52,859 nucleotides of DNA from Deltaproteobacteria bacterium (GTDB taxonomy: Bacteria > Desulfobacterota > Binatia > HRBIN30 > JACQVA1). Positions 1 through 5,213 of this stretch are shown piece after piece. The notes below the pieces were generated by a model. The model did not search any database. It saw nothing but the letters and a program-made list of their open reading frames with translations, and was not told the DNA's origin. A program made the translations under genes and the position numbers. The stretch is from the NCBI GenBank assembly GCA_016210005.1, contig JACQVA010000082.1:1-52859 (forward strand), in the 5' to 3' direction. Within the stretch, counting starts at the first letter, position 1. Every line of letters begins with the position of its first letter.

Positions 1-115
1 CATACGAGTCCTCCTTGATGAGAAAACTCCTCGACGCCCCCATTCGATATCGCTCGACTCCGCTCCTTACAGCTCATTCACCCACCCCACCGCAACGAAT
101 CGGACCTACTTCCCG

Positions 116-152
116 TTGCAGAAACGTGACGTTGAATACCCCACTTCTGCAA
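116..152. repeat. Hairpin next to octamer array (copy A)
   Basis: TTGCAGAA at 116-123 is the exact reverse complement of TTCTGCAA at 145-152, giving an 8-bp stem with a 21-base loop. The same module recurs at 819-861, each time immediately left of a plus-oriented octamer array. This points to a repeated unit rather than chance. It could be a terminus, a recombination site or a transcription terminator. There is no T-run. Confidence 0.65.
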
Positions 153-164
153 GGAAACACTGCG

Positions 165-267
165 ATCACGACAGCACGACAACACGAAAGCGGGACGAGG
201 GACCGTGTCGAACCCTTCGCCGATGGACTCCTCGATTCGTGCTTTCGCGCTGTCGTGCTTTCGTGAT
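165..267. mobile_element. Internally deleted GxxExxY cassette A (MITE-like)
   Basis: Both ends begin ATCACGA on the inward-facing strand (165 on plus, 267 on minus) and continue as tandem octamers of the CACGAAAG/CACGACAG type. Between the arrays about 35 bases resemble the start of the GxxExxY gene at 1033-1458. The rest of that gene is absent. At 103 bp this looks like a non-autonomous derivative of the 459-bp cassette at 986-1444. The mobile-element interpretation is inference. The shared ends and shared 5' coding sequence are visible. Confidence 0.55.
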
Positions 268-457
268 TCTCCGCTCCGCATCGCAACGCCCTTCAGGTGC
301 CCGGCTGCGCGTCAGGCGAGTGCTGGTGCATCCCGCCTTGGTGAAACGGGAAATCACCAGCGACCGCTGGGGTCGCTACTCGCGCCAGACCGCAGCCGAG
401 CCTGAACGGCTGGCCGGAGCGATCACCGCTCGGCTAGCGTTGGTTGCATGATCGCCT

Positions 458-664
458 TCACGGGCTGTCCGGCGCCGGGACGCAGTTCACCCTGTCCCCC
501 GTTGGTTTGCACACGAACACCCTTCTTCCCGCCCCGAAGAAGCCCCCGTTGCGCGTTACGTAGAGCGTGGAGCCATCGCCGCTGGTCGCGACGCCGCCGT
601 AGCTGCAGCCGCCCAAGACGGTGAGGCAGCCCATCAGAAGTCCAATCGTGATGATGCGTGTCAT
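458..664 (-). CDS. Small lipoprotein, function unknown
   Basis: A 68-residue protein with a hydrophobic N-terminal segment ending in a lipobox (Leu-Gly-Gly-Cys). After signal peptidase II cleavage this would leave a lipid-anchored peptide of about 50 residues. The mature part is rich in Gly and Thr and carries two further cysteines near the C-terminus that could pair. A purine-rich GGGGGA lies about seven bases before the ATG. It is isolated between repeat elements. I do not recognise a family, so only export and lipidation can be inferred. Confidence 0.65.
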   Translation of the reverse strand: MTRIITIGLLMGCLTVLGGCSYGGVATSGDGSTLYVTRNGGFFGAGRRVFVCKPTGDRVNCVPAPDSP

Positions 665-818
665 CGTTCCGTTCCCCCTTTCGGCTGTCGGTTACCTGAC
701 ATCTCCATCCTGAACCTCCGTCCCCCTCCGCTTGCACCCGGCGGCGCCCGGCCGTAGTTCACGATTCCTTCCTTACAGCGCATCTTCGTAGAGCAATGCA
801 AGGCGCCGGAACCGTGGC

Positions 819-861
819 CCGTTGCAGAAACGCGACGTTGAACACCCAACTTCTGCAACGG
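819..861. repeat. Hairpin next to octamer array (copy B)
   Basis: CCGTTGCAGAA (819-829) and TTCTGCAACGG (851-861) are exact reverse complements, an 11-bp stem. The loop is nearly identical to that of the copy at 116-152. The stem is longer here than in copy A, which has lost the outer three pairs. Compensated or conserved pairing would argue that the structure matters. Confidence 0.7.
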
Positions 862-871
862 AAGCCCTGCG

Positions 872-965
872 ATCACGACACCACGATAGGACGACAACGC
901 GAAAACACGGAGTCATGACCACCAACTCCCCGGTTCGTGCTTTCGAGCTGTCGTGTTTTCGTGAT
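872..965. mobile_element. Internally deleted GxxExxY cassette B (MITE-like)
   Basis: A 94-bp unit with inward-facing octamer arrays at both ends. Read on the minus strand, about 33 bases after the right-hand array align with the start of the GxxExxY gene, with five mismatches (all transitions) and one gap by my count. The sequence then jumps straight into the opposite array. It sits 20 bp from the full cassette, in the same orientation. Confidence 0.55.
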
Positions 966-985
966 GCTCCGGTCCGACGGAGGCG

Positions 986-1444
986 ATCACGACAGCACGA
1001 AAGGTCGACAACACGAAAACTCCCCACAGCCATCACAGCACCACTCGTTTCACAATCAGGGTCGGGGCATTGAAGTTGAGCAGGAGGCCGATGTGGAGAT
1101 GGGTGGCCTTCAGATATGACTTGAGCTGGGCGAAATGGACGTCCTCCAGCGCCTTGACGGCCTTGATCTCCAGAACGATCTCGCCCTCGACGAGCAGATC
1201 CAGTCGATGCAGCCCCACCTCCTCCCCTTCGAACGAGACGCGCACTTCGCGCTGCTGCTCGAAGCGGATGCCTCGGTGCTCGAAGGCAACCACGAGAGCA
1301 TTCTCGTAAACGCTCTCCAGAAAGCCCGGCCCCAAAGCTCTATGAACTGCCACCGCCGCGTCGAGGATTCGTCCCGACAGGGCCTCGAAGTCATGGCCAA
1401 CCGACTTCTCGGTTCGTGCTTTCGAGCTGTCGTGCTTTCGTGAT
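986..1444. mobile_element. GxxExxY cassette bounded by inverted octamer arrays
   Basis: The left end (986-1020, plus) and right end (1411-1444, minus) both start ATCACGA and run inward as imperfect tandem octamers. Nearly all the sequence between them is the GxxExxY reading frame, whose stop codon lies about 12 bases from the left array. All three left ends in this region share GCGATCACGAC. The array-gene-array organisation resembles a minimal insertion sequence. No target-site duplication was identified. Confidence 0.55.
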
Positions 1445-1458
1445 TCTCCCGTCTGCAT
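1033..1458 (-). CDS. GxxExxY family protein (PD-(D/E)XK nuclease fold)
   Basis: A 141-residue protein of the GxxExxY family (TIGR04256/PDDEXK_3). The signature is Gly45-x-x-Glu48-x-x-Tyr51. The candidate nuclease residues are Asp87 (RLDLLV) and Glu97-x-Lys99 (LEIKAV). The biochemical role of the family is not established; the fold implies metal-dependent DNA cleavage. The ATG at 1458 follows AAGGGGG with a five-base spacer. The reading frame extends upstream to 1986, but that part belongs to unrelated remnants. Residues 5 to about 18 are encoded by the octamer array itself. The N-terminus is therefore Arg/Lys/Ser-rich and translated from a repeat, with the conserved domain starting near residue 23. 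Confidence 0.88.
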   Translation of the reverse strand: MQTGESRKHDSSKARTEKSVGHDFEALSGRILDAAVAVHRALGPGFLESVYENALVVAFEHRGIRFEQQREVRVSFEGEEVGLHRLDLLVEGEIVLEIKAVKALEDVHFAQLKSYLKATHLHIGLLLNFNAPTLIVKRVVL

Positions 1459-1527
1459 CGCAACCCCCTTCACGCGCCCGCGAGAATCGCGTTGACTGTC
1501 GCCGCAGCCGCTGGTAGCCGTTGGCGT

Positions 1528-1986: not shown

Positions 1987-2474
1987 GGGCGATATCCCCT
2001 CCTGGATCAGCGGCCCAGTCGACGAAAACGGCTGGCATGACAGCAGGTGACGAATGCTGTCTCGAACGCCGCGACAGTTAGTCCAAGCGCGCCGACCGTG
2101 TCAAGGAAAATAATTCCCCTCTCGTGGATGGGGCCGGCGTCTACTCGAAACTACCACAGCGGTGGGTGTTTCGCTCACGCTTCGTATTCGTGCCGCCTGT
2201 ACGAACCTCGCGGCTCACTTTCGTCATCGCGGAATGGCCGGGAGAAACCTTTGCCGGGATCGGCGCTGACGGAGATCAGGGTTGGTTGGGGCAGCCGCGC
2301 GCTGAGCGACCGTCTCCGGAAGTCTTGCCGTGGCGCGCAGATTCGTGTTTGCAGACGGCGCTGCCCCCTTCGCGAACGACTTCGCCGCGGCCCTGCCCTT
2401 GTCGCGCCCGGCCGCCCGGCGTATGAGCCGGTCACCATGAGCCCGCAACACCAACCGGCCGGCGGCTGAAGTTG
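1987..2474. other. Intergenic region, no gene recognised
   Basis: Both strands have open frames because of the high G+C content, but none has a ribosome-binding site plus recognisable protein features. It contains one AT-rich patch (2104-2120) and presumably the promoter of the exporter gene that follows. No clear -35/-10 pair was picked out. Confidence 0.4.
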
Positions 2475-5213
2475 ATGAGTCGCCTGTTCGCCATCCCGCT
2501 TCGGGCCCCGCGCCTGACCTTGGCGGTTATGCTCGCGCTGACGGCGTTCTTCGGCTTCTTCGCCCGCGCCATCCGGGTGGATAGCTCGATGGACGACCTG
2601 CTGCCGGCAAATGATCCGGACAAGCACTACCACGACAGCGTCAAGGCCGACTTCGGCGACGACGAGATCGCCGTCATCGGCGTGTTTGCCGACGACGTGT
2701 TCGCTCCGACTACGCTCGCCAAGATCGACACGCTATCGCAACGCTTGGCTCAGATTGAAGCGGTGCGCGAGGTCGTGAGCCTGACCACCGTCAAGGGCAT
2801 CACCATGAGCGACTCCGGCCTGAGCGCTGGCCGCCTGATGTCACAGCTGCCGCGCACGCCGGCACAGGCGGCCGAGCTGCGCGCTGCGGTGCTGGCCAAC
2901 CCGCTCTACCTCAAGAACATCGTCTCGCCCGACGGGCGCGCCGCCGGCATCACCGTGGTCTTCGAGTCGATGACCGATGAGCTGTTTCTGGCGCGCGGCA
3001 TCGAACCACAAATGCGCGCGCTGCGAGCCGAACTGCCGGGGCCCGAGCAGTTCGCTCTCACCGGTATCCCGACCATCAAAGCGAACGGGGCACGCCTGAT
3101 GGAAAGCGACACGCGCACGTTCACCGCGCTGTCGCTGCTGCTCGTGGTCGTCGTGCTCAGCTTGGCCTTTCGTACTCCGCGCGGCGTGCTCATTCCGCTG
3201 TCGACGGTGATCATCGGCGTGGTCTGGACCAGCGGCCTGATGGTGTTGCTGGGCACCTCGATCAACATGGGCACACTGGTGTTGAACCCCCTACTGATGG
3301 TGATCGGCATCGCTTCGGGAATCCATTTGATCAGCGAGTATTACGCCGAAGCGCAGCCGGGGCGCACCGCGCAAGTAGTCGTCGCCCAGACGATGGCCCG
3401 GGTACGCCTGCCGGTGGCGATTGCGGCCGCGACCACACTGATCGGCTTCGGCACGCTGGTCTTCACCCCGATTCGCGGCGTACGCGAGTTCGGTGCTTAC
3501 AGTGTCTTTGGCATCACGGTGATCGTGCTCGCGGCCTTCACGGTGGTTCCCGCGCTGTTGGTGCTCTTGCCGCTGCCACGCGCAATTCCTGCGCACCGTG
3601 AAGACGATGGCAACCGACTGGCAAGCCTGCTCCGGCGCATCGGCGCCTTCTCTGTGCGACACAGCCGCGCGGTCTTACTGGCCAACGCCATCGTCATCGG
3701 CATCAGCCTGTGGGGAATCGGCCGAATTCGGGTTGAAACCGACTACCTCGGTTTCTTCCACCCGCAGAGCCGGATCCGCACCGACAACGCTTTGATCGCC
3801 GGCCGGCTCGCCGGCACACAGCCGATCTCCGTCGTCATCGACGGCCACGCACCACAGGCAGTTACGCGCCTGGACGTGCTGGCTGCCATGCACGAGCTGC
3901 AGCAGTTCATCGAGCGACAGCCGGGGGTGGACAAGACCATGTCGGTGCTGGACTACCTGGCGCTGGTGCGCCGCGCGCTGCAAGCTGATGCGCTCACCGC
4001 CCTACCCGACTCGCAAAGCGAGGTCGATCAGATCCTGATGTTGGCCGAGGCGGACGACCTCCGGCCGGTGCTGAGTTCGGACGCGTCGCGGGCCAACATC
4101 ATAGTACGCACCAAGTTGTCAGGCTCGGCCGACGTACGTGAGTTCGTCGCGGGCGTGCGGGCGTTTGCCGCGGAGCATTTTCCCGGCCGCATCACCGTCC
4201 GCCCGACCGGCACCGCGGTGTTGCTCAACCAGTCGGCGGACGCGCTGGCGTGGGGCCAAGTCACCGGCTTGTGGCAGGAGCTGGTGGTGCTTTTTGCATT
4301 GCTGGCGTTGATGTTTCTGTCCCTGCGGGTGGGGCTTTTGGCGCTCATCCCGAATATAGTGCCGACGGTTGTCCTGTTCGGGCTGATGGGCTGGAGCGGA
4401 ATCAGCTTGAACATCTCAACCAGCATGATCGCCGCCATCGCCATCGGCGTCGCCATTGACGACACCATCCACTTGCTGAGCGCCTTCAACGAGGCGCTGC
4501 GCCGCACCGGAAGCCAGGAGCAAGCCATCATCGCAGCCATGGGCTCCGCGGGTCAGGCTGCCTTCTTCATCGCACTGGCGTTGTCGGCCGGGTTCTTCAT
4601 CGTCTGCTTGTCTAACTTCCAGCCGGTGATGCACTTCGGCCTGCTCGCCGGTGCCACCATGATCATCGCGCTCGCCGTCGAGCTGTTCTTGACGCCGGCA
4701 CTGCTGACCACGACCAAGATCATCACGCTGTGGGACTTGCTGTTTCTCAAGCTCGGTCCCGAGCCCCAGCGGCAGATCCCGCTGTTCGCCGGCTTGCGTC
4801 CGTTCCAGGCGAAACTGGTTGTGCTTATGGGACACCTAGAGTCCGCCGCGCGCGGCGCCTTCATCACTCGGCGCGGGGAGCTGAAGCCGGAGCTGTACGT
4901 ACTACTCAGCGGCTGTGCCGAGGTTCGCAGCGGAAACGACCGCCGCGTCATCCGTAGCCTTGGCCGCGGCGAGGTCATCGGCGAGATGGGGCTGGTACGC
5001 CAGCGCCCGCGCTCGGCCGACGTGGTAGTAGCCGACGACCTGGAGTACCTCGTCCTCGACCAGCGCTTCTTGCAGCGCTTGCGCCGGCGCTACCCCCGCA
5101 TTGCCGCCACCGTGTTCTTCAACCTCACCCGCATCCTCAGCGATCGGCTCGAAAACACCACCGCCGCCCTGGCGCGCAGGCCGGCCGGCAGCGCCCGCGC
5201 CGGTACGGATTGA
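2475..5213 (+). CDS. RND/MMPL exporter fused to a C-terminal cyclic-nucleotide-binding domain
   Basis: About 912 residues. The N-terminal part is a two-fold RND (MMPL/Patched-like, COG1033) transporter. It has one helix at residues 12-33, a periplasmic loop, and helices from about 218 to 366. A second helix near 397-415 is followed by another loop and a helix bundle from about 600 to 745. From about 770 to 890 there is a Crp-type cNMP-binding domain with a recognisable phosphate-binding cassette (GEMGLV followed by PRSA). RND exporters of this type move lipids or hydrophobic molecules, and hopanoid transporter HpnN is a relative. The fusion suggests cytosolic control by cAMP, c-di-GMP or a lipid-like ligand. 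A TTG precedes the chosen ATG directly. Confidence 0.85.
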   Translation: MSRLFAIPLRAPRLTLAVMLALTAFFGFFARAIRVDSSMDDLLPANDPDKHYHDSVKADFGDDEIAVIGVFADDVFAPTTLAKIDTLSQRLAQIEAVREVVSLTTVKGITMSDSGLSAGRLMSQLPRTPAQAAELRAAVLANPLYLKNIVSPDGRAAGITVVFESMTDELFLARGIEPQMRALRAELPGPEQFALTGIPTIKANGARLMESDTRTFTALSLLLVVVVLSLAFRTPRGVLIPLSTVIIGVVWTSGLMVLLGTSINMGTLVLNPLLMVIGIASGIHLISEYYAEAQPGRTAQVVVAQTMARVRLPVAIAAATTLIGFGTLVFTPIRGVREFGAYSVFGITVIVLAAFTVVPALLVLLPLPRAIPAHREDDGNRLASLLRRIGAFSVRHSRAVLLANAIVIGISLWGIGRIRVETDYLGFFHPQSRIRTDNALIAGRLAGTQPISVVIDGHAPQAVTRLDVLAAMHELQQFIERQPGVDKTMSVLDYLALVRRALQADALTALPDSQSEVDQILMLAEADDLRPVLSSDASRANIIVRTKLSGSADVREFVAGVRAFAAEHFPGRITVRPTGTAVLLNQSADALAWGQVTGLWQELVVLFALLALMFLSLRVGLLALIPNIVPTVVLFGLMGWSGISLNISTSMIAAIAIGVAIDDTIHLLSAFNEALRRTGSQEQAIIAAMGSAGQAAFFIALALSAGFFIVCLSNFQPVMHFGLLAGATMIIALAVELFLTPALLTTTKIITLWDLLFLKLGPEPQRQIPLFAGLRPFQAKLVVLMGHLESAARGAFITRRGELKPELYVLLSGCAEVRSGNDRRVIRSLGRGEVIGEMGLVRQRPRSADVVVADDLEYLVLDQRFLQRLRRRYPRIAATVFFNLTRILSDRLENTTAALARRPAGSARAGTD

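Follow-up and report, generated by a model that had tools for sequence, protein, structure and literature searches.

The stretch of DNA analysed here (the window, 52,859 nucleotides) raises the question of what a gene of GxxExxY, a named protein family without established function, has to do with the arrays of short repeats that face each other on its two sides. Three inward-facing array pairs, reported in a preliminary description of the window, are indeed present: a gene-bearing pair of 459 bp (986-1444) and two gene-less inverted pairs, to which no strand is assigned, of 94 bp (872-965) and 103 bp (165-267), the last with a single-stranded DNA (ssDNA) hairpin folding z of -5.5. The left terminal array of the gene-bearing pair (986-1017, plus strand) consists of the four octamers ATCACGAC, AGCACGAA, AGGTCGAC and AACACGAA, and the right terminal array (1413-1444, minus strand) reads, on that strand, ATCACGAA, AGCACGAC, AGCTCGAA and AGCACGAA. 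As had also been described, ATCACGA forms the outer edge of all six arrays, and GCGATCACGAC is the left end of all three pairs. The arm-versus-arm alignment score of the gene-enclosing pair is 19.5, compared with a maximum of 13.0 in 940 shuffles pooled over 47 loci.

The enclosed gene (1033-1401, minus strand, with the stop codon at 1033-1035 and the HMM match at 1039-1380) belongs to the GxxExxY/PDDEXK_3 family, passing the curated cut-offs of both PF13366 (131.9 bits against 22, E = 1.9e-38) and TIGR04256 (136.8 bits against 35, E = 4.1e-40). The claim that the 459-bp pair encloses a complete gene agrees with these matches but not with the position of the start codon. By reading, the ATG start of Planctomycetota homologs aligns with GTT (1399-1401) and the nearest in-frame ATG (1456-1458) lies outside the array, so that the frame is open through the right array. 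GxxExxY genes were found in 26 of 148 genomes of the window's class and in 139 of 294 genomes drawn from the phylum to which G149, a Pirellulales genome, belongs (Planctomycetota). A search of viral contigs gave 22 pattern matches and no relatives, and a phage search matched one halovirus, in two records. In the available parts of PMC8934634 and PMC12085832 the family is named once each, in one as a reverse-transcriptase neighbour and in the other in a viral gene table.

The predicted structure of the window protein has a mean pLDDT of 88, with values below 50 for residues 1-14, whose codons lie in the array and in the sequence that follows it. Its best solved fold match is SSO0001, which we take to be a Cas4 nuclease (Foldseek E = 2e-4; Z = 10.3, rmsd 2.9, 97 residues aligned), and D63, E73, K75 and Q87 are invariant in 20/20 aligned GxxExxY proteins, the first three being presumably the PD-(D/E)XK active-site residues. 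The motif pattern of Cas4/RecB-family nucleases, D, ExK and Q..Y, is also that of GxxExxY, which differs from them in being a stand-alone domain of about 120 residues with no solved relative by sequence. Lower fold matches include alkaline and lambda exonucleases, MGME1, restriction enzymes and Holliday-junction resolvases. In the Z-scored comparison, which is a re-examination of Foldseek's own match list, only 4 of 1000 chains reach Z ≥ 8, and only two matches, both to SSO0001, have a Foldseek E ≤ 0.001, so these lower matches may reflect a common arrangement only. A sequence search for solved relatives of the protein found none, and no Cas4 model was among its Pfam or NCBIfam matches up to E 0.001, the likeness to Cas4 being one of fold only. 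The model thus points to a Cas4/RecB-like PD-(D/E)XK fold for GxxExxY, and a common fold does not prove a common function.

The two shorter pairs had been described as keeping the start of the gene after the right array. By reading, with the gene-bearing copy as reference, about 30 nt past the right array are retained clearly in 872-965 and more weakly in 165-267. The pairs also have sequence in common outside the arrays. The left outer flank of the 103-bp pair (64-164, plus strand) recurs next to the 94-bp pair (770-871, plus strand; 73% identity over 100 nt) and beside a copy on contig C250 of the same genome (84% over 98 nt), and the right outer flank following position 267 (268-303, plus strand) is 83% identical over 36 nt to that following 1444 (1445-1480, plus strand). 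The local copies are therefore at least partly a segmental duplication, and three independent insertions are ruled out by these common outer flanks. From its sequence, the window locus looks like a duplicated segment whose elements lost their interior by internal deletion in place. The suggested relationship of an autonomous element to MITEs accordingly finds support in gene-less derivatives that, by reading, occur elsewhere, in genome G131 and on C250, rather than in the three local pairs.

To find out how far the association extends, we aligned, for each locus, the 220 nt upstream of the gene with the reverse complement of the 220 nt downstream, and compared the score with shuffles. GxxExxY genes do not generally lack flanking arrays, a prospect raised with the preliminary description: inverted arrays above the shuffle threshold were found at 90 of the 111 loci scored. 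The window's class contributes 39 of 47 full or nearly full loci (60 TIGR04256 rows minus 13 partial matches). Planctomycetota, Armatimonadota, Verrucomicrobiota, Bacteroidota and plasmid records contribute 24 of 35, a sample made up of 28 rows minus four partial ones, three further loci (nine minus five repeats and minus L145, which is cut by a contig end) and eight plasmid hits, of which only four pass (Sphingomonas, Gemmatirosa, Bacteroides and Bernardetia). A further sample from the phylum of G149, comprising the best matches of a longer list, new loci only, gave 27 of 29 with the threshold of 12 taken over. As controls we used ribosomal S15 and the ParE toxin family, drawn from 20 genomes that carry GxxExxY. 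Flanking arrays were present at 0/17 S15 loci and at 0/29 scorable ParE loci (30 were used, as for TIGR02436 below, with one of each having too short a flank), so flanks of this kind are not a general feature of small genes in these genomes.

We also applied a stricter null, in which the upstream flank of one GxxExxY locus is paired with the downstream flank of another, and which runs high because many mismatched flanks are themselves arrays of like units. For the window's class, 5% of 2162 such pairings score above 14.0 and 1% above 20.0, and the 99% points for the samples of 47, 35 and 29 loci are 20.0, 16.5 and 23.0, respectively. The 95% point is exceeded by 38/47, 24/35 and 22/29 loci, and the 99% point by 25/47, 20/35 and 11/29. 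The low last figure, from the Planctomycetota sample, arises because the units there are alike; 31% of its mismatched flank pairs also score above 12.

Among the array arms no longer than 70 nt, 64 out of 78 have a best period of 8 or 9. A CRCRRA core occurs at least once in 75, and at least twice in 65, of the 90 loci with arrays, and the upstream arm ends a median of 36.5 nt before the HMM match. A significant pair is absent at 21/111 loci, five of which form one divergent group (L062-L065 and L087, about 88-92 bits to TIGR04256) that also makes up five of the eight misses in the window's class. By reading, L063, L064 and L087 have the start of the same downstream gene in common, as if domesticated. 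At another locus (G150:C176:36950-38477) two tandem GxxExxY genes, about 1.2 kb apart, have identical first 25 residues, and only one of them scores as flanked by arrays.

The unit of the array tracks the protein. Among named genomes, a pattern scan placed the nearest homologs of the window protein in Planctomycetota, two of them 67 and 71% identical over the best segment and a third 75% identical but cut at 61 residues, and these closest homologs carry the window octamer or its CGCGAAAG variant. In homologs at 53-57% identity the unit has changed to CACGGAAG, CCAGGAAC or GCAGGAAG types. We quantified this by permuting arrays among loci within each group (5000 permutations), the groups being the window's class and the named phyla. 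The group difference is assumed for phyla other than Planctomycetota, and for Planctomycetota it rests on 293 further genomes from the phylum of G149, none of them among those of the window's class, with 135 rows unlisted. For the 14 different-group pairs with at least 60% protein identity, mean array similarity is 12.17 versus 6.08 expected, and for the 110 pairs at 50-60% identity it is 6.87 versus 5.65, with 0/5000 permutations as high in either case. Between 40 and 50% identity there is no signal of co-variation (4739/5000 permutations equal or exceed the observed value). Taken over all different-group pairs, array and protein similarity show no significant rank correlation (rho 0.039, equalled or exceeded in 514/2000 permutations); some arms in that analysis belonged to a neighbouring pair (L183, L198). 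The co-variation is thus confined to pairs above 50% identity. A single unit for all GxxExxY genes of a genome is ruled out by the window's own genome, which holds CACGAAAG, CGCAGATGA, CATGAAGG and GGCGCAAGAG types.

The search for other copies proposed in the preliminary description yielded related array pairs elsewhere in the genome, on contigs C250, C182 and C73, and in G001, which belongs to the same family and another genus. The pairs are therefore not limited to this one locus; such a limitation had been named as the finding that would speak against mobility. The C182 and C73 copies have unrelated flanks, as do, by reading, those of G001, and two C250 copies retain the 3' end of the gene, with matches reaching window position 1064, 32 nt into the gene. 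As to whether copies interrupt genes, six of eight array-only copies lie in some frame that is open anyway. Inverted pairs dispersed outside the gene locus can form hairpins, with ssDNA folding z from -1.7 to -7.6 for six array pairs. In G001, seven CACGAAA-type array pairs (L304-L310) were observed, and none of the four GxxExxY genes of that genome has this unit.

We compared 31 outer ends from this genome and G001, in which 32 nt recur, consisting of four octamers near ATCACGAA-ANCACGAA-AGNTCGAA-ANCACGAA. Agreement reaches 1.00 inside these ends and at most 0.65 at any of 16 positions outside, as in terminal inverted repeats with a sharp boundary. Conserved end-to-end boundaries, which the preliminary description had suggested looking for, are thus seen in these ends, with part of the agreement built in, because selection of the ends required CACGA as an anchor in the outer unit plus two or more additional CGA units; 10 of the 31 stem from the duplicated loci of the window and C250.

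Empty sites, also suggested for search, were found at four host junctions, where a GxxExxY element is present in one genome and absent in another. The first junction lies between a histidine kinase and a response regulator (family f5; Pfam HisKA, HATPase_c, Response_reg), and eight copies of it are readable. It is empty in G122, in which the kinase frame runs into the regulator gene. It holds gene-less CGCAAAG-type pairs in G121 and G132, CACGRAGG-type GxxExxY elements in G124 and G128, a CGCAAAG-type GxxExxY element with further gene-less pairs in G126, a GTTCAA-type pair in G133 and a TIGR02436 gene in the second G132 copy. Uncounted at this site are the second copy on C161 of G132 and G133 C250, both at contig ends, and G140, which has unrelated sequence after the kinase. 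Of the seven kinase frames checked, five end immediately ahead of the insert. The inserts of G121, G132 and G126 may descend from one old insertion, and the site is therefore best read as showing at least three kinds of insert, not eight events. At L147 (G124:C224) the kinase frame, which contains N's in the kinase part, passes through the array into the GxxExxY frame, possibly as a natural fusion.

The second junction, in genus g63, lies between an xth-like gene (PF03372, exonuclease/endonuclease family, by reading) and an amidohydrolase gene (PF04909), and contains GxxExxY elements in G126, G127 and G129; in G128 there is only a short hairpin, which lacks arrays of this kind. G131, from another genus, has behind a gene of the same type the gene-less pair mentioned above, which by reading retains the start of the GxxExxY gene. 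Between fabD and fabG, there are 464 nt with an element in Sphingomonas parapaucimobilis YK209, on plasmid NZ_CP155749.1, and 32 nt in S. paeninsulae, in which fabG is unannotated and its start was placed by alignment; in the latter (L243, NZ_CP032828.1), the fabG frame appears shifted near its start, after 1263. Between radA and the gene of an FAD protein, there are 478 nt with an element in Bacteroides finegoldii and 13 nt in Parabacteroides distasonis. A different inserted gene occupies this junction in Phocaeicola massiliensis (L341, OY726023.1, about 1590-2250), so the site takes unlike inserts. At the four junctions the inserts are located at the 3' end of the gene upstream of them, in most cases directly behind its stop codon, and a target-site duplication could not be defined, the compared flanks being too diverged.

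These results bear on an alternative explanation, in which the arrays are operators or terminators by which an ordinary gene regulates itself, and the local repeats are segmental duplications. The common outer flanks of the window's three pairs and the median of 36.5 nt between the upstream arm and the HMM match would be in keeping with it. However, arrays stand on both sides of the gene, gene-less arrays occur in unrelated flanks (the C182, C73 and G001 copies), and at the empty sites the arrays are absent together with the gene, which makes this explanation very improbable.

A second protein family is found in the same architecture. Four-helix-bundle genes of TIGR02436, which we take to be the family of the S23p protein of rRNA intervening sequences (IVSs), lie within inverted arrays at 24 of the 29 loci that could be scored among L091-L120. 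The best period of these arrays is 7 or 14 in 17 of 22 arms, and CRCRRA is present in 0/24. The Coxiella 23S rRNA IVS is described, in the consulted sections of PMC4990558, as bearing tandem heptamers immediately ahead of its S23p ORF, and inverted repeats and mobility are discussed there for such IVSs. These heptamers fit the heptamer-period arrays of the TIGR02436 loci, which suggests that the array-flanked loci are free-standing relatives of the 23S rRNA IVSs, and as such they may bridge GxxExxY elements and IVSs.

The same comparison could be taken to mean that the GxxExxY element acts as RNA, its arrays forming an RNA hairpin, the insert being tolerated in transcripts or cut from them, and the ORF acting on RNA. 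Besides the Coxiella IVS with its S23p ORF and upstream heptamers (PMC4990558, as far as the accessible text goes), the location of the insertions between co-directional genes would fit such an element. On the other hand, the best fold matches of GxxExxY are DNA nucleases, with SSO0001 first, a scan of the whole window gives no Rfam match at gathering score, and DNA elements would be expected to leave just such array-only copies and empty sites. We consider an RNA element quite unlikely.

The four-helix-bundle loci also speak for another alternative, namely that arrays and ORF are both passengers, moved in trans by some other enzyme (a transposase, a reverse transcriptase or the recombination machinery), with GxxExxY only binding or protecting the arrays. 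Since four-helix-bundle genes occur in the same architecture with another repeat type (24/29 scorable loci), the ORF may not be the moving enzyme, and the G001 array pairs without a cognate GxxExxY gene point the same way. Against this, unit and GxxExxY sequence co-vary above 50% identity across the sampled groups, the repeat type differs by protein family (CRCRRA at least once in 75/90 versus 0/24), and the catalytic residues are invariant in 20/20 proteins. A passenger role is in our view unlikely, but the four-helix-bundle elements, whose like architecture comes with no known nuclease, and G001, whose arrays of the window's type have no matching gene, are the strongest objections to the reading we prefer, and leave room for a shared host mechanism with the ORF as an accessory.

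The reading we prefer, and consider probable with some reserve, is that 986-1444 is a copy of a widespread family of small mobile elements, each composed of a GxxExxY gene and lineage-specific arrays that its nuclease would cleave, in a manner resembling REPIN/RAYT. The observations behind it are the association of gene and arrays and its reach, the 32-nt ends of this genome and G001, the co-variation above 50% identity, the presence or absence at host junctions and the internally deleted derivatives. Each element would comprise a GxxExxY gene between inverted arrays of about three to four units of 8-10 nt, the unit sequence being particular to each protein lineage, and gene-less inverted array pairs would be its non-autonomous derivatives. 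The nuclease would recognise its own array, most likely folded into a hairpin or with its paired ends exposed in single-stranded form, and would cut it, while joining would be left to host replication or repair. The element would in this way work like REPIN/RAYT with a Cas4-like PD-(D/E)XK nuclease in place of the transposase.

REPIN/RAYT (TnpA-REP) systems are similar in having short, hairpin-capable extragenic repeats in inverted pairs, a cognate gene near the repeat and co-evolution of protein and repeat, as described in the available portions of PMC3116915 and PMC8266576. They differ in their HUH transposase, where the GxxExxY element has a PD-(D/E)XK protein of Cas4-like fold, and in their REP palindromes, where it has arrays of 8-10 nt units at its ends. 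No HUH (Y1) transposase was found as the gene enclosed by the arrays, which matches only PF13366 in Pfam and TIGR04256 in NCBIfam, and the end consensus begins with ATCACGA; REPIN/RAYT ends are GTAG/CGTC-tagged REP palindromes. The 23S rRNA IVSs with an S23p ORF resemble the element in their small ORF and the tandem short repeats, heptamers, upstream of it (PMC4990558, from the part available). In contrast, the GxxExxY element is intergenic, encodes a nuclease and has a period mostly of 8-9 rather than 7. A location in 23S rRNA is not indicated in the window by any Rfam match at gathering score, and the ORF of the window element is a PF13366 protein, not an S23p four-helix bundle.

In a comparison with insertion sequences and MITEs by transposase class, the enclosed gene, to which the comparison was limited, encodes a PD-(D/E)XK protein. 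The MITE BrickBuilt of Porphyromonas gingivalis is also intergenic, with inverted ends and tandem repeats inside a miniature element, but its units measure 23 nt and it is described as having a limited range of hosts (PMC4596501, in the sections seen); the GxxExxY element, for its part, has no known link to a transposase. The TAACTGA heptamer repeats of Beggiatoaceae, Cyanobacteria and Bacteroidetes are likewise short-period, intergenic, patchy and seemingly horizontal, with no evident mechanism, but are described as direct repeats, mostly upstream of genes (PMC4679880, available in part). The main text of PMC4679880 makes no use of the words endonuclease, transposase, S23 or four helix.

Since the defining tests of both REPIN/RAYT and rRNA IVSs fail, we rate the kind of element as new. 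Among the titles and abstract openings listed in searches of an open-licence literature library, which leaves out preprints and most subscription journals, none describes GxxExxY with inverted arrays, and the element family is apparently undescribed. If the array is the substrate of GxxExxY, a single protein and a single short DNA would suffice for a direct test of the family's function. The proposal, if true, would also supply the mechanism that descriptions of intergenic short-period repeats have lacked, and a link to the long-standing question of how S23p-encoding rRNA intervening sequences have spread. On a wider view, which we hold tentatively and with slightly more doubt than conviction, GxxExxY proteins could be the enzymes of a separate class of bacterial mobile elements, in which a lone Cas4-like nuclease would read a lineage-specific 8-9 nt code at the element's own ends and spread both the element and gene-less array pairs, with S23p/four-helix-bundle elements, rRNA IVSs among them, as a parallel 7-nt class, the two jointly explaining many scattered repeats; many of the short-period CRCRRA-type and heptamer repeats of environmental genomes would then be accounted for.

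Other parts of the window also have copies on further contigs of the genome. A locus on C250 (G000:C250:7788-8023), beside arrays, matches window positions 455-691 at 90% and by reading holds a small lipoprotein-like ORF. Positions 1506-1688 have an 89% identical copy on another contig (G000:C244:3542-3724), and 1492-1700 contains, by reading only, remains that resemble the start of an antitoxin/PIN-toxin gene. Further along, 2472-5213 on the plus strand encodes a transporter of the MMPL family, 913 residues long, that carries a cyclic-nucleotide-binding domain close to the C-terminus; a 76% copy is present on contig C57.
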